From Aphrocallistes beatrix (taxonomy: Eukaryota; Porifera; Hexactinellida; Sceptrulophora; Aphrocallistidae), in contig OY725502.1 of the NCBI GenBank assembly GCA_963281255.1, positions 4,030,001-4,094,000 on the forward strand: a stretch of DNA of 64,000 bases, read 5' to 3'. A program made the position numbers and the translations under genes. Under the pieces are notes generated by a model, which saw nothing but the letters and a program-made list of their open reading frames with translations, was not told the origin of the DNA and searched no databases. This document shows positions 7,776 to 59,999 of this stretch, in pieces (positions within the stretch are counted from its first letter, which is position 1; each line of letters begins with the position of its first letter).

Positions 7776-8784
7776 GATATCTCGAGTTGATCATGTGTTG
7801 ATCGTATACACTTGAATCCTCAACCTCTGCGAATTCACTGTTCGATCGATTTATATTATAAAATAACACAATTTGTCTTCTCTATTTCTTCAATAAAATT
7901 TCTACATTTGCTTTGAACACAATTGTCTACTACATTTGCGTATCAATCACAATGTCTACTAATTAATGTGTACTTATTCTGAATGGTAGTAACATGTTAT
8001 TCGATTGCAATGCAATTTACAATGATTTATGTTAGCTCAGAATGTTAGATAATCAAACCTAAGTTTCACGTGACCCTTTCAAGTTAATTCATTGTCTTAT
8101 ATTAGCAGTGGATCCAATTAAGAAATAACAGTTCGAGATTCCTTCTGATTTATCTTGTTGCTAATACTGGCGACATTCAATACTCAGAAATGCAGTGATT
8201 TAGAGTGGACTTGTTCCACAGTGCAAATCCAATATTAATTTCTTAGTTTAATTTTATGCGAACACTCATAGCTTGTGCGTTTGGATATTCTCGGAGAAAC
8301 TAATTAATGTTTTATTCAATTAAAATGACTTCACAGTATTGCGTCAGCAGACAACAGGGCTATTTTTAGAATAATTGTTTGTACTTTTGTAGTTCAGCAA
8401 TGCAAAGTATAATATTTCACACTTTGAGCAAGTTCCATTGCGCATTTCACGTAGTTACATCATGAAGTCATATTACATTCCATTTGATGGGGCTATATAA
8501 ATGCAATGTTTTATAAGAATTCTAATTCATTATGCTAATTCTCCGTTATAATACTCCTTGTTCGTAGCAATCACGTTGAAACCATAATAAATGCAATCTT
8601 GGTAGGCACTATCCTTTCCATTGTAAGAGTAATTCCTTGGATTTGTATAAATTAAAGATATATTCAGATAGCTTATAGTTTAGCCGAGAAAATTGTTGCA
8701 GAAATTCTGCAGAAACATTGCAACTAACAAATTCATTAATATTTGCTTATTAGAAGGGTTTTAACTCAGGAAGTTAGAAGACTA

Positions 8785-35545: not shown

Positions 35546-35597
35546 TAGTTAAACTGTTGAGTGTTGTGGTGTAGTTAAACTGTTGAGTGTTGTGGTG
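35546..35597. repeat. Exact 26-bp tandem duplication over a stop codon
   Basis: Positions 35546-35571 and 35572-35597 are identical (each starts TAGTTAAACTGTTGAGTG). One copy encodes the last residues and stop of the minus-strand gene at 35575-36588; the other lies just after its stop. Identity implies a recent event or conversion. Confidence 0.85.
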
Positions 35598-36588
35598 TAA
35601 CCCTTTTCGAAGAGTTATCGAGTTTTATAAATCTAATTCTATAAGCCATATCGAGCTTATCTTCCAGTTCCATGATCGCCTCGAGTTTGATCGGCTCCGT
35701 ATTAGTTTTTGGAACCGATTGGAAACCGAGCAACGATATCATTTTCAGCGTAGCTCCGTTCGATTTTGAAGTATATTTTAAACTACCAGCCTGCAGTTGT
35801 TTGAGTTTCCTTCTTAGATGTGTTTTAAGCTCGGGTTCCATCATAGAATCAATGTAGTGGGTAGGCCGTACATCCGTTTCGCTCCGTGAGCGTTTTCGAA
35901 TTGCAACTGGAGACCTTTCTTCTGAAATACTTTCGAGTTTCGGGAATTCAATGGGGGTAGATGGCAATGACAAATGTCCTAGTTCATCTTCAATTGACTT
36001 TCTTCTGGACGAAATGCGGTCATCCATCATTGCACTGGAAATAAGTGCGTTGTTTGAGATTTCTTTATGAAAACTCATATTGCAGATGGGTTCGAAATCG
36101 AACCCCTGCCTACCTAAGGTGGCCAGGACAAGATTAAGGGAGGCGCGGATTCTAATTGTGCGCAGCTCATCATATCTTGCAAGGACCTCGATCTCGTTTT
36201 CAATGATGTCTACTGGGATATCAATTGCTGTGTACAGCCGAGATGCTATCTGATGGCCTATCTCGAATGGTTGAAGTTGAGAGATTTTGGTCAATGACCA
36301 TATCTCGTAATCAGGAATACGGATGTCAATGGAATAGTCCGGGGTCTTCTTCACTGTTAACGTATGGCAATTTGCATTGATAATCTTTGTGAAGGTCTGA
36401 TATGCTTTAACCATGGTGAAACTTTGCACGTTTCCAAATATCCTGTATGCATTTAGTAATTCAGAAATGGGAATTTGGGAAATGGTAAATTTTTTGCTTT
36501 CCAAGAGCTCTGAATACATCGATTCCAAACTCATTGGATCGCTTATTAATTCTGAATACGAGTAATCTGAGTCGCTGTAAATCTCCAT
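35575..36588 (-). CDS. Unrecognised 337-residue protein, intronless
   Basis: A long single frame on the strand opposite to its neighbours. I do not recognise the family. The N-terminus is acidic and Ser/Tyr-rich (MEIYSDSDYSYSELISD). Residues about 35-175 look globular and mixed alpha/beta, for example FTMVKAYQTFTKIINANCH and IPDYEIWSLTKI. Residues about 195-250 are Ser/Pro-rich with a basic cluster AIRKRSRSETD that could be a nuclear signal. The end is basic (LRRKLKQLQ) and then SSKRVTPQHSTV. No signal peptide or membrane segment is visible. The ATG at 36588 is the first Met, 12 bases after an AG; a TATATATA lies about 60 bp upstream. It could be lineage-specific or an extremely diverged gene. 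Coding status is supported by length and composition only. Confidence 0.7.
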   Translation of the reverse strand: MEIYSDSDYSYSELISDPMSLESMYSELLESKKFTISQIPISELLNAYRIFGNVQSFTMVKAYQTFTKIINANCHTLTVKKTPDYSIDIRIPDYEIWSLTKISQLQPFEIGHQIASRLYTAIDIPVDIIENEIEVLARYDELRTIRIRASLNLVLATLGRQGFDFEPICNMSFHKEISNNALISSAMMDDRISSRRKSIEDELGHLSLPSTPIEFPKLESISEERSPVAIRKRSRSETDVRPTHYIDSMMEPELKTHLRRKLKQLQAGSLKYTSKSNGATLKMISLLGFQSVPKTNTEPIKLEAIMELEDKLDMAYRIRFIKLDNSSKRVTPQHSTV

Positions 36589-36646
36589 TGTTTGTAATTG
36601 CTGATTATATTCAGAGGTGAATTTATCGCTCTCCCCTATCTATCCC

Positions 36647-38197: not shown

Positions 38198-38315
38198 TCT
38201 ACAAGTGTTTTTTTATCAAACTAATTAGGTTTTTTTCAAGAATTTTACATTTAACTTAGATATTTTATGTACATTAGTCACTCCTGACTGACATATTTGT
38301 TTTGTGTCAAATAAA

Positions 38316-39380
38316 ATGGCGAAAGCACCTAGTTTGCTGGATGAAGAGGAGATTGCTCATCAGAATTACGACTATTCCCTTTTAATTATCGGAATGACGG
38401 GATCCGGTAAGACATCAGTAACTAATTATTTTCTTAACGAAAAGGTATTCAAAGAAGGCCGTGGCCTAACTTCTGTTACCAAAAAGGCCCAACATGCCTT
38501 GTGCGAAAACGGAGAGAAGAAAATATTCATTGTGGACTGTCCTGGATTTTGTGATCCGAATGCAACACATGAGACGATAATGAGCGAAATATTTCGTTGT
38601 GCTATTTGGATTCACGGTGGTGTTGATGCTGTAGCTATTGTGGTAGATATTTCAAAGCGTTTTAGCGATAATTGGGACGTTGGATTTCAGCAGGTAGAAC
38701 AAATTGGGGTTGCTTTATGGAAATTCGCCTTTATTATATTTACACATGAATATGTGATCCTAGATAAACCTAAAATTTCAAAAGGAAGACATTATTTAAA
38801 GAATTTGGTTGACGAAAAGGCAATGCCTGAAAAACTTCATGAGTTATTAGTTAAAGTTGATCAAAGATTTTTTTGTTTGGACACAAGTGAAAAAGATCCT
38901 AGCATTCGTAATAAACATTTCATGAAGTTGGTGGACATAATTGAAAGAATTCGTTTGGAAAACGCAAAGAAAAAATATACAAATCAATTAATAAACATGT
39001 TTTATGAGCAACATCTACAAATATTATATCACAAGGCAAAAATTACTGAACTAGAAAGGTCAAATCAACTTTTAAGATCTCCCTCACCTGCAATGCAAGT
39101 TCCACAATCTCCCCCAACAAAACAAGCTCCATCATCTTCTCCAACAAAACAAGCTCCATCATCTTCTCCAACAAAACAAGCTCCATCATCTTCTCCAACA
39201 AAACAAGCTCCATCATCTTCTCCAACAAAACAAGCTCCATCATCTTCTCCAACAAAACAAGCTCCATCATCTTCTCCAACAAAACAAGCTCCATCATCTT
39301 CTCCAACAAAACAAGCTCCTCAGGATGAGGGTAAACACTTTGATAGAGATCTTAAAAAAATGAAATGCAACTTTGTATAA
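38316..39380 (+). CDS. AIG1/GIMAP-type GTPase with repetitive C-terminal tail
   Basis: 354 residues in one exon. The AIG1-type G domain spans about residues 18-215: P-loop GMTGSGKTS (26-34), a switch-I-like region GRGLTSVTKKAQ, the G3 motif DCPGF at about 74-78, the conserved box GVDAVAIVVDISKRF, and IIFTHEY in the G4 position. These septin/TOC-related GTPases of the GIMAP group act in membrane scaffolding and, in vertebrates and plants, immunity. Residues about 215-255 are a charged, coiled-coil-prone helix. The tail has eight PTKQAP units separated by SSS and ends basic (DLKKMKCNFV), without a membrane anchor. Start: ATG at 38316; the upstream GTG in frame is ignored. It is divergent from the serpin relic and 216 bp from WDR11. 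AIG1 genes are often expanded in invertebrates. Confidence 0.85.
   Translation: MAKAPSLLDEEEIAHQNYDYSLLIIGMTGSGKTSVTNYFLNEKVFKEGRGLTSVTKKAQHALCENGEKKIFIVDCPGFCDPNATHETIMSEIFRCAIWIHGGVDAVAIVVDISKRFSDNWDVGFQQVEQIGVALWKFAFIIFTHEYVILDKPKISKGRHYLKNLVDEKAMPEKLHELLVKVDQRFFCLDTSEKDPSIRNKHFMKLVDIIERIRLENAKKKYTNQLINMFYEQHLQILYHKAKITELERSNQLLRSPSPAMQVPQSPPTKQAPSSSPTKQAPSSSPTKQAPSSSPTKQAPSSSPTKQAPSSSPTKQAPSSSPTKQAPSSSPTKQAPQDEGKHFDRDLKKMKCNFV
39114..39320 (+). repeat. Perfect coding minisatellite, 27 bp x 7.7
   Basis: Seven full 27-bp units (CCAACAAAACAAGCTCCATC, then ATCTTCT) and one 18-bp partial encode (PTKQAPSSS)7-PTKQAP. I see no base difference between units, not even at silent sites, which implies recent expansion or homogenisation. 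Confidence 0.95.
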
Positions 39381-51300: not shown

Positions 51301-53034
51301 GGTGCAATTCTACCTCAAAATGTTTGTATACGTTGCGTGGCCAATCTAAGTTTCGCGTATTGTTTCGAGTACAATCTCGTTGTACCAGCTAAGGGATATT
51401 AATTTCCCAAAAAGTGTTTTATCAGACGCACAAATATATTCTGATTCGCTGGCGTTTTAATTCACTGATTGCCTCAGCCATTTCTAAATGAATCTGGAGT
51501 AAGTGTAATTGTTTTTTAGTTATAAATTATTGAAATGAACTGTAAATGATTTTTCATTACATATATTTCTAGTAATTTTGGAAATGGCTACGCCAACTTT
51601 TTCTTTCTTCTGTCTGTGGCTTTATCAACTCTTTCCATTTTAGGCGCTGTGTTATGATAAACTGGTGGAAGTTCTTGGCATATCAGTCTACGTACTAATC
51701 GGATTTATGGTCGCACTCATTCTGTTACAGGTTAATGATATATTTTTTAGTTTATTTCAAGCACTTTTATGGACATCTGAGCATGTCCGTTCTTAAGATG
51801 GCTCGAGTTCTAACTCATAAGCTCATAAGACCGACCCTGTGTCTGTTAGTTTTGGAACCTCAATTTCTGCATAACTTTTATTGATAATTCCATCACTCAA
51901 GGTTGATGCAAATTTAATTATTTCATTTTCCATATTACCTTTGCGGTCCAAATAGCTTTGCTCTAACATTTAATGTTTAATAAGCAGTTTGAATCAAACT
52001 GAATAGCGTGTGCCATCTCCTCACGATTTTCACCTCTTTCAACGTTGGATGAGCTTATCAAATTCTTATATCCAAATATTCTAGTTAAATGTCCATAATT
52101 CTTCTTAGCATGTGTTATCCGTTATGAATGCTCGGACTGTTTCACTATGAAACCTCAAATGCTGGTACGAACTAACAAACCTATGAAACTATTTATGACC
52201 TAACCATGCCGTATTAATTCACGAGATCTGTGCCTTCCAGTTTCTTTCAAGTTTTTAAAATCGAAATGTTATAATTTTGTTATTAGCATTTAAATGTAAT
52301 TGAATTGATGTTTTGAAGAAAGTCACAGTACATAGAACTTATATTGACCATATTTCTCCTACACAGCTTGGAGCAGTTGTTTTCAGCACTCTACTGGCAC
52401 AGATCACAAACTCCTATAAGAGGTACAAGAAGATGGAAGCTAATGAGGTGAGGTGGTAACCAATCACTTAGTGATAATTAGTGCACTATCCATTTCATTC
52501 TCCGCCTTCACATTCAACTTCTTATCTTTTCCTTTGAAACGTCCACGCAATTTGAATTTGAACAAATATATTAAAAGGATGTACTGGGTGGTCTTAGACT
52601 CCTACGAGTGACTGCATGGGGGAATTAAGACCAATATTTTTTTATCTAACAAATGATCATATCATTTCTTGGAAATTTTTTTCTTAGTAGAAGGATGATA
52701 TGGAAAATATACATGTGTTAAATACCTCCAAGTGCTAGGGTTACCAGATAGCATTTTTTCCCTGGACAATCTAGTTGTTTTGGGGAATTTAGGGAATGTC
52801 CAGTTGTTTTCCAGTCTATTATTTTTATCAAGTTCTTTTCCATACGGTATTCAGGAAAGTCCTAGTTTTTGTCAAAATCCAAAATCCCCTTCATAAATTT
52901 TGATGCCATTTGAAAACCTTATCTTTTAGAAATCCGCTAAAACCTCCAACGCTCGCATTCCTCGTGGTAAGCAGAACGATCCTAGCAGACCCCTCAACCC
53001 GTCCGCTCCCAAATACTCAGAAACGACTCACTAG
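45305..53034 (+). CDS. Tetraspanin, ten small exons
   Basis: A four-pass membrane organiser of about 270 residues. Exons: 45305-45373, 45442-45531, 45599-45665, 46791-46865, 48748-48822, 49325-49393, 50532-50627, 51644-51730, 52367-52447, 52930-53034. Every splice is phase 0 except the end of exon 3, which leaves one extra base, so a microexon or sequence error lies between exons 3 and 4. TM1 is in exons 1-2, TM2 spans exons 3-4 (FGFAAMGIFLII, VYLILCIAFFGY), TM3 is LIFFFLIIVIGEIGMAVYIY. The large loop has the LGCCNFG motif and further Cys in EACRTGQT and ALCYDKL. TM4 is VLIGFMVALILLQLGAVVF, with the family-typical STLLAQITNSYKRYK. The cytoplasmic tail is basic, then PSAPKYSETTH. Introns of up to about 1.9 kb are far longer than elsewhere; PINX1 sits inside intron 3. 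The first exon is the least certain. Confidence 0.85.
45966..46610 (+). CDS. PINX1: PINX1-like G-patch protein, nested in a tetraspanin intron
   Basis: 214 residues in one exon, on the same strand as and wholly inside the third tetraspanin intron. PINX1 (yeast Gno1) is a nucleolar G-patch cofactor of the DHX15/Prp43 helicase in ribosome and snoRNA maturation, and a telomerase regulator in vertebrates. The N-terminus matches closely: MLAEPKAKKLKWSSDPQN, WANDQSKFGLKMLEKMGWEE and the G-patch glycines GKGLGKDGTG, then DNKGLGFE. A second conserved part, LSTKSKEEISSIFYREKSSK, corresponds to the family KDLSxRSKxDLxxIFG block. The C-terminus is Lys/Ser-rich and shorter than in vertebrates (about 328). 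The ATG follows CCAATTAGCAATATTAG by six bases. It has its own start and stop, so it must be transcribed independently or processed from the host intron. Confidence 0.92.
   Translation: MLAEPKAKKLKWSSDPQNLRWANDQSKFGLKMLEKMGWEEGKGLGKDGTGMNSHVEIRPIVDNKGLGFESTDTTVQLAQQSAYDNLLESLNKKYPQKKEREVTSATNDSVERTCFAIEKGTAKTRPLRYKKIIQEKDLSTKSKEEISSIFYREKSSKKSLKSDSKTSNFCGIKTQQSRLDSKKYFIGKTESHQKAKYSIKTYPNNDCKNGTKSN
46866..48747 (+). other. Long tetraspanin intron 4
   Basis: About 1.9 kb, AT-rich. The only longer open stretches, 47086-47313 (Cys-containing, no ATG) and 48079-48306, show no family. Long introns may carry regulatory DNA, but I see no specific motif. Confidence 0.4.
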
Positions 53035-53375
53035 GCTAAGCTATTGCGAACTTGAGATTTTGCATAGGAGGCTTTTATATTTATTATTACTATTATATGT
53101 ATTTTACCATTATGCTATCATTGTGAATAATTACTCCTTGCAATGAGCTGGCTTATTGTATTACACATAGACTGTATGTCTACAAGATATCCTGTTGTGG
53201 TAACCAATACACATTGTTGTTTATCATCTAAAATTCTCAAGCATTATACTCTGTAATAACCTCATTCTATCACAGATATTATTAGTTTGGACCAATTGAA
53301 AGGTTGTGTGGTTATTGAGGGGTAATGATCTTTCATTTTTTTCAATTCACTTATTAATTTAGTCACTTTATTTAT
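53035..53375. other. Spacer before the ankyrin-gelsolin-MRL gene
   Basis: 341 bp, AT-rich. It ends in a strong acceptor-like TTTTTTTCAATTCACTTATT then AATTTAG, 13 bases before the ATG at 53376. I see no repeats. Confidence 0.5.
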
Positions 53376-56300
53376 ATGAAATCCAGCAAAGGCCTCTGCG
53401 ACGCTTGTTCTGAGTCAACTCGCCCCGCACTATTCGCAGCGAGAGAAGGACATCTGAATTGCCTCGTATTTGCATGTGACTCGCTAGGGCAAGCCAGTGA
53501 GCAGGATGGTTATAGTGCAACGCCATTACACTTCTCTGCCAGGAACGGACATCTTGACTGTGTGAAGTGGCTCGTGCAGCACAATGTGATATCCCCGACC
53601 TCGGTGACACGAGGAGGCACCACCCCAGCACATGATGCTGCAGTTACAGGGCAAATTGAATGTCTGAAATACCTTCTTGATAACACCAAATGCTCCCTAA
53701 ACGATCGAACGGTTGAGGGCTCTACCATGTTGCATATGGCATGTCGATTCGGGAGGTTGCCGATGGTGAAATGGCTTGTGGGCGAATCTGGTGTTTCGCC
53801 GAACGAAACTGGCATCAACAACGTGACTCCAGTTCATATTTCTGCCGCCAAAGACCATTTGAAATGTCTCCAATGGCTGACGAGTCATGTTCGTTATGTT
53901 CCTAATATGGAAACTGTCCACGGTGCAACTCCCACGTATTTTGCTGCTCAAGAAGGCTGTCTTAAGAGTCTGGAATGGCTGCTCGACCGTGCCAATGGAA
54001 ATCCAAATATAGCAGCGAAGGATGGAATGCTGCCCATCCATGCAGCTGCACAGGCAGGCCATCTAGACTGCATTCGGATGTTGGTTTCCAGAGGTTTGGC
54101 CACTGTGAACGAGCCCTCGAAGGACGGAGGTAGCCCAGTGCATTTCGCAGCGGCCGGGGGGCATGTTGATACCCTCCTCTGGCTAATTCGAAACGGTGCA
54201 AGGGTTAACACAAAAGACGACTGCCACAGTACACCCTTGCATGACGCTGCGGAGCAAGGCCAGCCTGCTACGGTGAGATTGTTGTTAGAGTATGGGGGCG
54301 ACCCTAAGGCTATGGATGACGAATGCTTTACCCCACTCGACCTTGCAGAGGATTCCGGATCGTCTGAGTGCATATATTTGATAAAAGCTTCCATTTCAGG
54401 TGAAAAGATTCCTTCGAACCTCAATGCCTACCAACCAAGCCCTCGCAAAGTGAAACGGAAGGCAGAACATGTAGAAAACCCGGGCTACCAGCAAAGAGAT
54501 TTTGATTTTCTATCTTCTCCCACTGACATTGAAATCCAAACACCAAAGCAAAGGAGAAAAGGAAGATTTAATTTCAAGTTTTTCCGAGGAAACTCTCTGT
54601 TCGGTAGGCGTTCGTTTAGCTCTGTTGAGCACGAAAGTAGTATGGGAAGAAAATTTAAACGTTTTAAAAACAAGAGTAACCCTGTATCCAGAAATATATC
54701 ACAGTCAGATATATTAAGCAATGAAACACCTTCAAATATTGACAATGAAATACCTCACTTGAAAGATGCGCTCATTAGCTCAAAGTCACCCGACGTCATC
54801 AGAGTAGTTCGCCAAACTCCACAAACTGCCTCAGAGAATCCTAGATTTACTCCAGAAGCTCGTAGAAAGTCCGTTACCTCGATGTCAAAGGACTCATCGA
54901 ATTCTTCGACGCCTGAACTCGTGCTTCCACAATCGACAGCCGTTAAGTCGATAGGAGATGAGTTAAGCAATTTCAAAGCATGGGCTCAGTCCCAAAGTGA
55001 ACATCAAAAAGCTGAAAACAGTCTTGAAACTCAAGCGGTAAACAAAAAGAGAATTTTTGCTGTGAACAGTCCATTCATTGAAAATGAATTCGAAGCCAGT
55101 CGATCCACGGAGCAACACCTGGAGATAGGAAGAGGCAACGTTGCTAAATCTGTAGTTCCACCTAAACAAAATTTCCTAGAAAGAAAAGGAAATAAAAGTG
55201 TTCAGGATGTTAGGCCACCTCTAATTCCGCCAAAGCCAGCACTTACTCCGATAGAATTGCGTAAATTAGGAAATCGAAACCAAGTAGATTCTGATAAGGG
55301 AGAGCCAATTGATATCCAAAATGTTCAACTTGGCATCGATGCATTTGTTAAACATAAACAATTGTCTTTGGTTGATGAAGCAGATGAGGTAACCCACTCA
55401 ACTTCTACAAATAGAAATGCTCGCTCGCAGTTAGATATTCTAAAAGAGAATTCTCAACCAAAACAAGCTCACAAGTTAGTTGATGCTGATGTCGAAAATC
55501 AAAAGCTCCTTAACGCTTCCTATTTTGCAGAGATGAAACAAAAACGACTTGAAACGCTAGAAGCAGCTAGTTTGGCGCTGCTCGGTCCTCCCCTCCTTGG
55601 ACAGAGGCGAGTTAAGAAAATCTTCGTTGGGATTGGCAATGATCCCGGAATACATTGTTGGAAAGTAGGCCCAACTGCTAATAAGGTAACTGACATTACA
55701 AACTCTGTCGTGCTAAACGGACATCTACATGTGCTGGATGCCTACATATTCCTTCGTGTCTCTGCGAATGGGCCTGTGTTCCATCAGATTCACGTTTGGA
55801 AAGGACACCTGGCTGAGTGGGGTGTGTATGAAAAGACTACTGACCTGGCGCAAGAGCTTAGCAGTTCTCTGTCTGGTGTCAGCCAAATCTACAAAGAAAT
55901 ACAAGGACTCGAGAGTGTGCAATTTCTATCATATTTCAAATCAAAGGTATTATTCTACCACCAAACAACCAACAAACCATTTTCTCAGCCATGTCTCTAT
56001 GAAATATCTGGGACCCATGTTTTGCGTTGCAATCAAGTAAGCATCAGCCAACAACAATTTTCTCCCACGATGATGTATATTCTGATTATGCAGAAAACTT
56101 TGTATTTATACATCGGTCCACAGGCTTTGGAAAATTTGAAGGTACGTGCATACAATATTGCATTGGAACTCCGTGAAAAAGAGAAAATGACTTCTTTCCT
56201 CGTTCTTGATCCATCGCAGAAGAACGAAACGTTTCAGTCTGCATTGAGAGTTGTTGAGCGGCAAACCCTGAAGCACTTCACTAAACTATACCAATCTGTC

Positions 56301-59300
56301 CAAAACTCCGCAATCTCGGTGAAGTATTATCGTACTGTCTTCCAAGCAGGAAATCGAATCGGCTATCGGGAGATTAGATATGCACCCATTATTTTTGACC
56401 GAAATGAAGTCATCCTAATCGTTTCATCAGTTCGACTGATGGTGTGGGTTGGCCATAACCTAAGGCTACAACCACTTGACTTTCTGAGTATCGGACAATC
56501 ATTACTGAAATCTTCCTTCTATCCCGAATTGCTGCCGATCATAGTTCTCCATGAGTTTGGAGAGGATCAACTTTTTGATCAACAATTTCCCGATCATGAG
56601 AGAGTAAACCTGAATCTTTCAGATTCAGAAATCCGTGACGAGCTAAATGTGTCTTTCTTTCCTGTGCCTTCTATGCATGATGCCGGATTGGGGCGTATCA
56701 AAGTGTATGAAATAAATGCAGGCGGTAAGAGGGAACAACCCATTTCAGAATTTGGCCATTTCAAGTCTATTTACTGTTACTTTGTTCTTTACTCTTATCG
56801 TCGCGAGATTAAATTTCTTTCGCTGATCTACGTTTGGATTGGAAGCGAGGTCAGCGATAGTATTGTCCGAAATCAAGAAATCCAGTTACGCGAATTACAG
56901 TCGAATACTCCGGGCGACCAGGCTGTCTTCTACATTCCACAGGGACAGGAGACCGATCACTTCTTAAGCATTTTCAAGGCCAAATTTATTATTCACCAGG
57001 ATTCCATGGTAAGATCTTCCAATGACAATACCGTGTCTCTTTTCCGGATATTTTCATACAATTTGCTAAGTATCAAAGCAGTGCAAATTGAAGCCAATTC
57101 TTCAAACCTCCTTTCGAATTCGGCCTTTGTTATTAGTTCTCCAGCAAAGAGTGTAGTTTGGATCGGACAAGCTGCTTCACAGAACGACCGCCGTGGTGCT
57201 ATGCTCATTGCAAAGGAATTGAAACCACAGGAGCCATTGATTCTGATGGAGGGAGACGAAAATGAGAGATTTTGGATACAGCTTGGCGGAAAGCATTCTT
57301 ACCATCCTTTCCCTCAGGAATATTGGCCCCCTTATAACGCTTCACCTCTACTTTTCCACTTTGGTAAAGGCATCAAGCCTGTCTTTACGCCGATACCCAA
57401 TTATTCTCAAAAGGATTTACACATTGATGCCGTCTTTATTCTAAGCACAAGTTCTCATCTGTTCATTTGGAATGGTAGCATGGTAGAGACACTCGACTCC
57501 AAAGCAATTGCACAAGACTTCCTGCTACAAGTGACTCCAGAGAAAGCACTCGAGAGTCTGGTGCTAGTTGTGCTAATCCAAGGCGCAGAGCCTTCCAACT
57601 TCACAAGTCTGTTTCCCTCGTGGAATGACAACTGGTGGAAGGATGCCCATGTACAGCTAAGCAAGATACTAGCCAGTAGACCTATCTTAAAGCAGCCACC
57701 GCCTAAAATTGCTAAAGAATCAGCAAAATCTCCAGAGAAACCTGATACCGACTTCAAGATTGAGTCATTCCACGACATTTTGTCTAGCCCAATTGAAAGA
57801 AATACGCCAGTCTCCAGTGATAAACTGAAGAGCGCTTCAGCATCTTCGATAATGATTCCAGATACCTTTAAGGTCCAGGCTGAAGCTGTGAAAGGAGATT
57901 TAATGAAGGAGATCAACGAATTGGATGAAGTGCTTAGAAGTTTTGAATTGGAAGCTGCGCTCACCAAACCTGTAGCTGAGTTAGAAAAAGAGAAACGTAA
58001 GCAGACTAAGTTGGAGGCTTTGAGGAGAGGCGATTTTACTAAATTCACTGGAAAGAACGAACAACCAGAAGATGTAGACACTGACGCTCTCATTAAAGAG
58101 CTCGACTCTACTCTGAAACAGGTAAGTAAGAATGCGCAGATGGAGGAGCATAGGAGTAGATCAAATTCCAATCCAGACAGTTTGCAGCGGCCGAGAGCAA
58201 GTACAGACGTGTCGGCTCCGAACCTTCTTCCATACATGCCGGCCTCCAGGATCGCAAGTTCTGAAGCGGTAGATAGTACTGAAAGGAGAGACCGTACCGA
58301 GTCGTTTGTTAGCATAAGTGGATCTAGTACCGGGGTTCCCACACAGTTGTCTCAGGTAACGTCTCCGTTGATGCCGAAAAAGGGGCCTACCGTTAAGTCG
58401 TATACTCCTGGGCCTCAACGTAAACTGGCTCCTGTCCGTGGACAATTGACTAAAACAGCCCCAGAGAAAAGTCCAAATTTGACGCAAACTCAGCCAGGCA
58501 TTGGTGCCTGGGCTCCAAGTGTTGTGACACAGGAAGGACGTTACAAACCTCCAAAACCAAACGACAAAAATATTCAAGAAATATCAAAAAATATTAGATC
58601 GAATGTACAAGCAAAAATAGCCATGACGAAGGCCAAAGTCGATCCTGGGAAATCAGGTGCTCCTACCCAGGGCAGCAAATACTTGCTGTCGTTGGAACTT
58701 GAAGCGACTGGCCAGATTGTAGAGTTGGTAATCAAGCGTAACACAACCAGTCAAAACGTTATCTATAAAGTGGTTGAAAAGTGTCGTTGTAAATTAACAC
58801 CTACGCTTTCTCTGATCGAAGTTCTCACGGAGTTGAATTTGGAGAGGAAACTGGAGGACCATGAGCTCCCTTTGGATGTTGTCGACCAATGGCCTTCCAA
58901 CGAATCTCCAAATTTCAGGTTCAAATTAGTTGTGAGAGACTTCCCTGACAAGTACTCTATCTTTGGTGGGATTCTAAGTATTGATGAAATTGAGACTTCT
59001 CTCCATGACAGAACCCTACCTCGCCTTCAGTCAGAATTATTCGTGAATAAGACAAACCCGTTTGACAGTAACAACGATGGTTGGAGCAAAGAGAAGCTAG
59101 AGTTCGGAATGGATGGCATTTATATGTGGCAGGATTCAAAGACTCTCAGATGTATTTCCCAATTTTCTATCAACCAAGTTTATACGTTCATAGATAATAC
59201 CGACGCGAATGAATCGCGGTTTCCGGTTCCTTACTGTTTCGCTCTAAAACAGCTGAACTCTTGGGAAAAGAATGACTTTCATATTTTCGGTTCTGAGAAC

Positions 59301-59459
59301 AAAGAAATCTCCGTTACTTGGCATGGGTATGTTACCATCGCAATATTTGGATTGAAAAATCTGTATAAAGACTGGCAGATGATGCGAAAACAGTTCTCTG
59401 AACTTTTAGAAATGAAAACAACCCAGTCTGGAACAATTTTTAGTGAAAAACTTTCATAG
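53376..59459 (+). CDS. Espin-like ankyrin / six-gelsolin / MRL-type RA-PH fusion protein
   Basis: 2,027 residues in one uninterrupted exon. Residues about 15-335 are ankyrin repeats closest to espin (GGTTPAHDAAVTGQIECLKY, LHMACRFGRLPMVKWL, HDAAEQGQPATVRLLLEYG). FDFLSSPTDIEIQ at about 375 resembles the segment after the espin repeats. Residues 390-740 are a disordered linker with RPPLIPPKPA. Six gelsolin-like repeats follow at about 746-870, 871-955, 981-1070, 1104-1207, 1219-1305 and 1325-1422. The first has HVLDAYIFLRV, IHVWKG and REVQGFES-like KEIQGLESVQFLSYFKSKV. There is no villin headpiece. A helical stretch at 1490-1590 precedes an RA domain (about 1768-1861; SLIEVLTELNLERKLEDHE) and a PH domain (about 1872-2015; QVYTFIDN, PYCFALKQ, YVTIAIFGLKNLY) of the lamellipodin/RIAM type. 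Inferred role: linking small GTPase and phosphoinositide signals to actin capping/severing at the cell cortex. Confidence 0.9.
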   Translation: MKSSKGLCDACSESTRPALFAAREGHLNCLVFACDSLGQASEQDGYSATPLHFSARNGHLDCVKWLVQHNVISPTSVTRGGTTPAHDAAVTGQIECLKYLLDNTKCSLNDRTVEGSTMLHMACRFGRLPMVKWLVGESGVSPNETGINNVTPVHISAAKDHLKCLQWLTSHVRYVPNMETVHGATPTYFAAQEGCLKSLEWLLDRANGNPNIAAKDGMLPIHAAAQAGHLDCIRMLVSRGLATVNEPSKDGGSPVHFAAAGGHVDTLLWLIRNGARVNTKDDCHSTPLHDAAEQGQPATVRLLLEYGGDPKAMDDECFTPLDLAEDSGSSECIYLIKASISGEKIPSNLNAYQPSPRKVKRKAEHVENPGYQQRDFDFLSSPTDIEIQTPKQRRKGRFNFKFFRGNSLFGRRSFSSVEHESSMGRKFKRFKNKSNPVSRNISQSDILSNETPSNIDNEIPHLKDALISSKSPDVIRVVRQTPQTASENPRFTPEARRKSVTSMSKDSSNSSTPELVLPQSTAVKSIGDELSNFKAWAQSQSEHQKAENSLETQAVNKKRIFAVNSPFIENEFEASRSTEQHLEIGRGNVAKSVVPPKQNFLERKGNKSVQDVRPPLIPPKPALTPIELRKLGNRNQVDSDKGEPIDIQNVQLGIDAFVKHKQLSLVDEADEVTHSTSTNRNARSQLDILKENSQPKQAHKLVDADVENQKLLNASYFAEMKQKRLETLEAASLALLGPPLLGQRRVKKIFVGIGNDPGIHCWKVGPTANKVTDITNSVVLNGHLHVLDAYIFLRVSANGPVFHQIHVWKGHLAEWGVYEKTTDLAQELSSSLSGVSQIYKEIQGLESVQFLSYFKSKVLFYHQTTNKPFSQPCLYEISGTHVLRCNQVSISQQQFSPTMMYILIMQKTLYLYIGPQALENLKVRAYNIALELREKEKMTSFLVLDPSQKNETFQSALRVVERQTLKHFTKLYQSVQNSAISVKYYRTVFQAGNRIGYREIRYAPIIFDRNEVILIVSSVRLMVWVGHNLRLQPLDFLSIGQSLLKSSFYPELLPIIVLHEFGEDQLFDQQFPDHERVNLNLSDSEIRDELNVSFFPVPSMHDAGLGRIKVYEINAGGKREQPISEFGHFKSIYCYFVLYSYRREIKFLSLIYVWIGSEVSDSIVRNQEIQLRELQSNTPGDQAVFYIPQGQETDHFLSIFKAKFIIHQDSMVRSSNDNTVSLFRIFSYNLLSIKAVQIEANSSNLLSNSAFVISSPAKSVVWIGQAASQNDRRGAMLIAKELKPQEPLILMEGDENERFWIQLGGKHSYHPFPQEYWPPYNASPLLFHFGKGIKPVFTPIPNYSQKDLHIDAVFILSTSSHLFIWNGSMVETLDSKAIAQDFLLQVTPEKALESLVLVVLIQGAEPSNFTSLFPSWNDNWWKDAHVQLSKILASRPILKQPPPKIAKESAKSPEKPDTDFKIESFHDILSSPIERNTPVSSDKLKSASASSIMIPDTFKVQAEAVKGDLMKEINELDEVLRSFELEAALTKPVAELEKEKRKQTKLEALRRGDFTKFTGKNEQPEDVDTDALIKELDSTLKQVSKNAQMEEHRSRSNSNPDSLQRPRASTDVSAPNLLPYMPASRIASSEAVDSTERRDRTESFVSISGSSTGVPTQLSQVTSPLMPKKGPTVKSYTPGPQRKLAPVRGQLTKTAPEKSPNLTQTQPGIGAWAPSVVTQEGRYKPPKPNDKNIQEISKNIRSNVQAKIAMTKAKVDPGKSGAPTQGSKYLLSLELEATGQIVELVIKRNTTSQNVIYKVVEKCRCKLTPTLSLIEVLTELNLERKLEDHELPLDVVDQWPSNESPNFRFKLVVRDFPDKYSIFGGILSIDEIETSLHDRTLPRLQSELFVNKTNPFDSNNDGWSKEKLEFGMDGIYMWQDSKTLRCISQFSINQVYTFIDNTDANESRFPVPYCFALKQLNSWEKNDFHIFGSENKEISVTWHGYVTIAIFGLKNLYKDWQMMRKQFSELLEMKTTQSGTIFSEKLS

Positions 59460-59663
59460 TTAAAACATTTTACTTTTCTTTACGAATTTTAGTTATATTT
59501 TGTGACCCCTTTTCTCATTTATCTATATGCATTCTATTATATCTATATTTCAACGAGAGTGAAATAACTAACGTGGGCGATGAAAGGGATAATTAGCATA
59601 GCCGACTTGATGTCTGAAATTAATCTCCGTAATGACTTTAAATGTTATTAGTGTTTTAAAATA

Positions 59664-59999
59664 ATGGAAGACGTGGATGACGCAACTTTCAATAGGAAAA
59701 GATCAAAAAGGCCCTTGAAGAAGCGGATTGTTATAGAATATAATGAAGCTGCACGGAACAGATTTGTGACTGGCTTTCAAGGCAATAAGAAAAAGAAAAA
59801 GAAGATTGCGCTGAAGCAGAGATTAGCTAAGGAGAAGGCTTTGAGAAGAAAGATGAAATCGGACCAGAAGAAAAAAATGTTGGAACAAGTTGAGCTGTTA
59901 AACCCTCCACCGGATAAAGTGGGTATGGCATCACCAACAGTGAAAGTGAATCTATCAAATAATGTAGTTGAAATATCGGAAATCGATCTCTCAGTCTAA
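59664..59999 (+). CDS. NOL12: NOL12 (Nop25/Rrp17 family) nucleolar protein
   Basis: 111 residues, one exon. The family is RNA-binding and exonuclease-linked, needed for 5' processing of pre-60S rRNA in the nucleolus. The signature is IEYNEAARNRFVTGFQGNKK, equivalent to the family FDExxRxEYLTGFHKRK, followed by a very basic helix (KKKKIALKQRLAKEKALRRK) and a short C-terminal block TVKVNLSNNVVEISEIDLS, like the family VTVTTISDLDLS. The vertebrate protein is about twice as long; the Lys/Arg-rich extension after this block is absent, so this is a minimal version. Start: the only ATG, 12 bases after GTTATTAG. It lies 204 bp after the fusion gene. Confidence 0.85.
   Translation: MEDVDDATFNRKRSKRPLKKRIVIEYNEAARNRFVTGFQGNKKKKKKIALKQRLAKEKALRRKMKSDQKKKMLEQVELLNPPPDKVGMASPTVKVNLSNNVVEISEIDLSV

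Follow-up and report, generated by a model that had tools for sequence, protein, structure and literature searches.

Is a single protein of the hexactinellid sponge Aphrocallistes beatrix built from the parts of three different actin-associated protein types, and if so, which of their functions could it have retained? The question is raised by an open reading frame (ORF) at positions 53376-59459 of a 64,000-nucleotide stretch of contig OY725502.1 (assembly GCA_963281255.1), which is referred to here as the window. A preliminary description of this ORF had read it as one frame without a stop that joins espin-type ankyrin repeats, a six-repeat gelsolin core and an RA-PH module of the MRL type (lamellipodin, RIAM, MIG-10), in an order of which no example was known. 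In the analysis presented here the modules follow each other in that order, espin-type ankyrin domain, six-repeat gelsolin core and MRL-type RA-PH tail, with two long linkers between them (linker 1, 404 codons; linker 2, ~330 codons). The combination of three known modules in one protein is real and unusual.

Coding potential of the ORF

Translation yields an uninterrupted frame whose length far exceeds chance: the stop-to-stop distance is 2,033 codons, and the longest open frame in 60 Markov-1 simulations of 64 kb was 191 codons. The predicted protein of 2,027 residues has a mass of ~228 kDa. Coding signal was scored with a codon log-likelihood model, for which 15 hand-picked neighbouring pieces with 3,885 codons served as training set, and was calculated separately for the ankyrin, linker 1, gelsolin, linker 2, RA and PH segments. 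Frame 0 had the highest mean log-likelihood of the six frames in all six segments, and the two other forward frames contained between 5 and 45 stops per segment. Slightly negative values were obtained in four of 99 sliding windows of 60 codons, all within the gelsolin part. Since the signal of frame 0 is highest in the linkers too, both linkers appear to be translated, which speaks against separate genes having been joined. On these signals the ORF is predicted to be expressed as one protein.

An espin-type ankyrin domain at the N-terminus

The N-terminal block matches the Pfam family Ank_2 (E-value (E) 3.5e-56 in a search with the whole protein) and aligns with espin in one collinear stretch (E 1.8e-65; Table 1), in agreement with the espin-type assignment made earlier. 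In the first half of the domain, 63 of the 154 aligned residues are identical to espin, and over the first 175 residues the best espin stretch scored 107.4 bits, against 67.3 and 62.7 bits for the two ankyrin chains among the three alignments listed. For the whole domain, the summed scores of ankyrins, a TRP-type channel and designed repeat proteins are larger than that of espin because each of these chains contains many repeat copies. Of the five alignments listed, ankyrin-1 had the highest-scoring single stretch (139.5 bits), and espin scored 228.9 bits in total with one stretch passing.

What the protein shares with espin is the type of its ankyrin domain; the motifs, and most of the residues, associated with espin function are missing or changed. 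The PxWK/R motif, which we take to be the espin-type actin-bundling motif, does not occur in the 2,027 residues, as judged by a scan for the pattern P.W[KR] rather than for a model of the whole module. Both linkers lack a YY motif, the sole YY of the protein being located in gelsolin repeat 3. Espin residues N69, S103, L110, Y144 and D205 are named in Myo3 binding in the available part of PMC4758956. Their counterparts here are G80, E114, M121, I155 and D216, the last placed by hand from a constant offset; one of the five is identical, one is a conservative replacement and three are changed, and by this measure the Myo3 groove is not preserved.

A six-repeat gelsolin core and its calcium positions

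The central part matches gelsolin from end to end in a single stretch (residues 750-1422, E 7.9e-49) and contains five PF00626 stretches plus DUF7904 in Pfam. A local alignment to gelsolin scored 495, whereas none of 200 shuffles exceeded 58. Some gelsolin chains aligned in two pieces when the core was queried alone. These results confirm a six-repeat core, repeat 3 being the least certain. The first unit had been considered the most typical one, which the scores contradict: G4-G6 reached 120.1 bits versus 43.8 for G1-G2, the C-terminal half being the best preserved, and the best Pfam stretch lies in repeat 6. DUF7904 as a special mark of this protein was dropped; the C-terminal half of human gelsolin matches it at E 2.1e-15, versus 4.5e-11 here. 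No villin headpiece was found, in agreement with the preliminary description: the Pfam searches returned no match to it, either for the whole protein (E up to 1) or for linker 2 (E up to 10).

The gelsolin family is the textbook case of actin regulators that are switched by calcium. According to the available part of PMC13013752, gelsolin has one type-2 calcium site per repeat plus two type-1 sites, and the calcium residues of G2 are G186, D187, E209 and D259. In the alignment with human gelsolin, in which the homologous positions outside G2 are our own assignment, the pair corresponding to G186-D187 reads LD, TM, EV, IY, NS and DA in G1 to G6, and the position of E209 reads V, L, P (or Q), I, D and T. 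The type-2 aspartate is therefore kept in one of six repeats (G1) and the glutamate in none, one being an aspartate (G5); in this one-comparator alignment no repeat (0/6) retains both acidic ligands. Acidic positions in G1 and G4, which we take to be the type-1 ligands, are altered as well. In addition, the basic run that follows G1, KSGLKYKK in gelsolin and presumably a phosphoinositide binder, is reduced here to KSKVL and a gap. By alignment, this would be a gelsolin core without an intact calcium switch: of a gelsolin-derived function the six-repeat core is present, and a complete pair of type-2 ligands is not.

An RA domain and a probable PH half at the C-terminus

The RA domain passed the Pfam cut-offs for RA_2 (E 2.7e-8) and RA (E 1.9e-7). 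The chains nearest to the tail were lamellipodin (E 7.9e-8), RIAM (4.2e-6 at best), Grb7 (4.6e-4) and Grb14 (0.003). Lamellipodin aligned collinearly with the RA and PH halves, to which its E-value applies jointly, and RIAM and the Grb proteins aligned at the RA part alone. The PH half scored 14.0 bits against a profile of lamellipodin and RIAM, and the best of 5,000 shuffles scored 8.4; a two-half profile gave 38.6 bits on the full tail versus 27.0 on the RA domain alone. With hhalign, the PH half obtained a probability of 12.5% (P 0.0023), compared with 0.1% (P 0.5) for the RA piece used as negative control. Together these scores indicate that residues 1849-2005 are probably the PH half of an RA-PH unit.

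Domain searches and structure prediction had been proposed as checks in the preliminary description. The former matched ankyrin, gelsolin and RA models, and Pfam gave no match for PH; the latter, run without an alignment, gave no confident fold (mean predicted local distance difference test score, pLDDT, 32.5 for the RA-PH tail and 31.7 for the gelsolin core). The MRL-type assignment is thus supported for the RA domain, with lamellipodin as its nearest match, and weak for the PH half, which is collinear with lamellipodin. MRL proteins carry tandem FPPPP motifs, as stated in the available part of PMC4543927; neither FPPPP nor LPPPP (Ena/VASP EVH1-binding) occurs in the 2,027 residues. As regards an MRL-derived function, then, the RA domain is there, the Ena/VASP-binding motifs are absent and the basic loop of the PH domain is mostly gone.

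Linkers and short motifs

Residues 391-432 in linker 1 comprise 14 K/R, 8 F and 2 D/E, a composition that none of 5,000 shuffles of this linker matched, with a statistic picked after the stretch had been sighted. The MARCKS effector stretch has a similar make-up, and the stretch here may be a candidate membrane or filament contact. Linker 2 contains two acidic LD-like segments (Table 1). In MRL proteins talin is bound by short amphipathic helices (PMC4589889), and by this analogy alone the two segments are candidate talin-binding helices. When linker 2 was compared with the PDB, no MRL protein matched, and the two hits obtained (E 0.37 and 1.3) were unrelated.

A similar short motif is found in both linkers, DFDFLSSP at residue 375 (window position 54498) and SFHDILSSP at residue 1464 (57765). 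The pair could be a common docking or phosphorylation site; a similar segment presumably follows the ankyrin repeats of espin.

Table 1. Features of the ORF, with positions in the window
Feature	Residues	Position	Strand	Basis
ORF, 2,027 codons plus stop		53376..59459	+	translation, no internal stop
Espin-type ankyrin-repeat domain	16-336	53421..54383	+	phmmer, single stretch to espin 5et0/5et1
Polybasic-aromatic stretch, linker 1	391-434	54546..54677	+	composition; function inferred
SH3-ligand-like PLIPPK, linker 1	615-620	55218..55235	+	regular-expression match, no proof of binding
Gelsolin repeat 1	~750-858	55623..55949	+	alignment; boundary approximate
Gelsolin repeat 2	~872-960	55989..56255	+	alignment; boundary approximate
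Gelsolin repeat 3 (least certain)	~967-1075	56274..56600	+	alignment; not covered in one of the alignments
Gelsolin repeat 4	~1100-1201	56673..56978	+	DUF7904 match, alignment
Gelsolin repeat 5	~1220-1312	57033..57311	+	alignment
Gelsolin repeat 6	~1323-1422	57342..57641	+	best PF00626 stretch 1339-1409; alignment
Two acidic LD-like segments, linker 2: EINELDEVLRSFEL and DVDTDALIKEL	at 1512 and at 1566	57909..58127	+	
RA domain, MRL-type	1767-1848	58674..58919	+	Pfam, lamellipodin match
Probable PH half of MRL-type RA-PH unit	1849-2005	58920..59390	+	weak; no match alone

Genomic surroundings

Pfam matches were obtained for 14 of the 16 coding pieces picked from the window. The neighbours identified in this way include a ubiquitin-conjugating enzyme, TIP120 (CAND1), dihydroorotate dehydrogenase, Trm112, Noc2, a cupin-like protein, a CID/Surp protein, an AIG1 GTPase, WDR11, a G-patch protein, Nop25 and an aldo-keto reductase. 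In several of them the coding sequence is distributed over many frames, and the candidate introns that scored best measure 63 to 392 bases. The Nop25-like gene starts 205 bases beyond the stop of the ORF. All 14 matched pieces lie on the + strand between window positions 8740 and 62152, with short intergenic gaps (15 of the 16 pieces scanned were on this strand, partly by choice). The AIG1/GIMAP-type GTPase is encoded in a single frame (38292-39380) and carries, in its C-terminal part, eight PTKQAP copies in a nine-residue tandem unit. On the - strand, a 354-codon frame at 35575-36639 matched no Pfam family at the threshold of E 0.001.

One gene or several

The neighbours bear in two ways on the origin of the 6.1-kb frame, which is undivided where several of them are divided over many frames. 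The frame could represent two or three genes, either as separate transcripts or through an assembly join that stays in frame. A scan of donor-acceptor pairs 40-400 bases apart that passed a signal filter, which leaves aside weaker or longer introns, returned 18 pairs, three of which preserve the frame. However, two of these (54284-54607 in the last ankyrin repeats and 57009-57317 in repeat 5) would remove parts of domains that align, and the third, 58932-59030, lies within the RA-PH junction that aligns with MRL proteins and is not favoured. Moreover, in both linkers frame 0 is free of stops and shows codon bias, and the frame would have had to be retained at two joins. We consider this explanation very improbable. 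The absence of introns might also be explained if the ORF had arisen as a retrocopy from a fused transcript, in which case it might have little function; its single frame amid multi-frame neighbours speaks for this. The flanks 52901-53375 and 59460-59990 have no exact 12-20-base direct repeat in common, and the latter contains no run of more than seven A, but an old retrocopy would have lost such marks anyway. The intact frame, and the fact that the dihydroorotate dehydrogenase, AIG1 GTPase and aldo-keto reductase neighbours are likewise single-frame, also argue against a retrocopy, which we regard as unlikely.

A proposed function and its main rival

With a single gene as the starting point, our reading of the three modules, to which we give roughly an even chance, is that of an actin-capping or side-binding scaffold that is calcium-independent and is recruited by a Ras-family GTPase and the membrane. 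The RA domain would bind an active GTPase of the Ras/Rap family and place the protein at a protruding membrane, assisted by the basic stretch of linker 1 and perhaps by the PH half. The gelsolin core would cap or hold barbed ends or sides of filaments irrespective of calcium, and the ankyrin groove would recruit a partner, which is a class III myosin in espin and is here probably different or altered. In this way the input of a gelsolin/villin-type regulator would have been switched from calcium to a small GTPase and membrane identity. Both GTPase binding by the RA domain and actin binding by the core are putative. The espin, gelsolin and MRL-type sources are supported by sequence, and the "signal-gated" actin remodeller of the preliminary description was a fair inference; the functions implied there have to be narrowed.

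Several observations weigh against the scaffold as proposed. The PH half alone gave no PDB sequence match at E up to 10 and no Pfam match, and the MRL loop KKSWKKRYF aligns here with NDGWSKEKLEF. Since the basic loop is thereby mostly lost, lipid binding by the PH half is doubtful. PMC4543927 states that no direct interaction of MRL proteins with small GTPases had been reported; RIAM is treated as a Rap1 binder in the abstract of PMC3327698. The calcium-site comparison involves one comparator at 27% identity, part of whose sequence is provisional, and G6 has a glutamate one position away from the expected ligand. Finally, six scans yielded no confirmed relative in viral contigs (whole protein, RA-PH alignment, gelsolin alignment and ankyrin part) or prokaryotic genome contigs (gelsolin part and RA-PH alignment). 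As these collections consist of viral and prokaryotic sequences, the scans are uninformative on distribution.

In the main rival explanation the core keeps the gelsolin fold but has lost both capping and severing and serves as a platform for filament sides or for other proteins, with flanking modules that merely localise it; supervillin is an example of such a platform. That no repeat has both calcium ligands, that the presumed type-1 positions in G1 and G4 are changed and that identity to gelsolin is 27% all favour this possibility. Against it, the similarity spans the full length of gelsolin, and barbed-end binding need not vanish together with calcium control; we hold it to be less likely than the capping or side-binding scaffold.

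If the calcium-independent scaffold is correct, a natural fusion that lost calcium ligands and gained an RA-PH tail could serve as a test case for the evolutionary swapping of actin signal inputs. By gene-fusion logic, it would also hint at a common place of action for the functions of espin, gelsolin/villin and MRL proteins. More tentatively still, the ORF may belong to a lineage-conserved family in which a calcium-uncoupled gelsolin core is tied to Ras-family GTPases and the membrane by the MRL tail, with the espin groove as a dock for cargo or motors; three filopodium/microvillus regulators of other animals would then be merged into one obligate polypeptide.

Comparison with known proteins

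Gelsolin cores are fused to other modules in supervillin, flightless I and villidin. The protein described here resembles these in that a gelsolin core is joined with further modules, and is not known to share these further modules with any of them. No description of the order ankyrin-gelsolin-RA was found among the literature matches listed, as far as their available parts go, which is not proof of absence. The novelty claimed for this order was thus uncontradicted, and it is provisional because the comparison took in no eukaryotic protein database; what can be said is that known modules occur in a combination not found in the literature and collections searched. Caenorhabditis elegans VILN-1, which PMC7144083 describes as homologous to human supervillin and PMC13072950 as a villin homolog, is grouped with these proteins here, and the novelty of the order is provisional with respect to it too. 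In sponges, villin and four espin homologs have been reported in choanocytes of a freshwater species (PMC4942974), the main text of which, as available, does not contain the words "ankyrin" and "gelsolin".

Compared with espin (5et0/5et1), the ankyrin domain is collinear across 320 residues, whereas PxWK/R and a linker YY are missing and the Myo3-binding residues read G, E, M, I and D. The match to gelsolin, villin and adseverin is full-length with six repeats in order; unlike these proteins, the one described here has no repeat with both calcium ligands, a shortened basic run after G1, no headpiece, and extra modules fused to the core. As to the MRL proteins, the tail differs from them in its lack of FPPPP/LPPPP, in a weak PH half with a depleted basic loop and in forming the terminal part of a gelsolin protein, but shares with them an RA domain followed by a probable PH half, nearest to lamellipodin, and LD-like acidic segments upstream.

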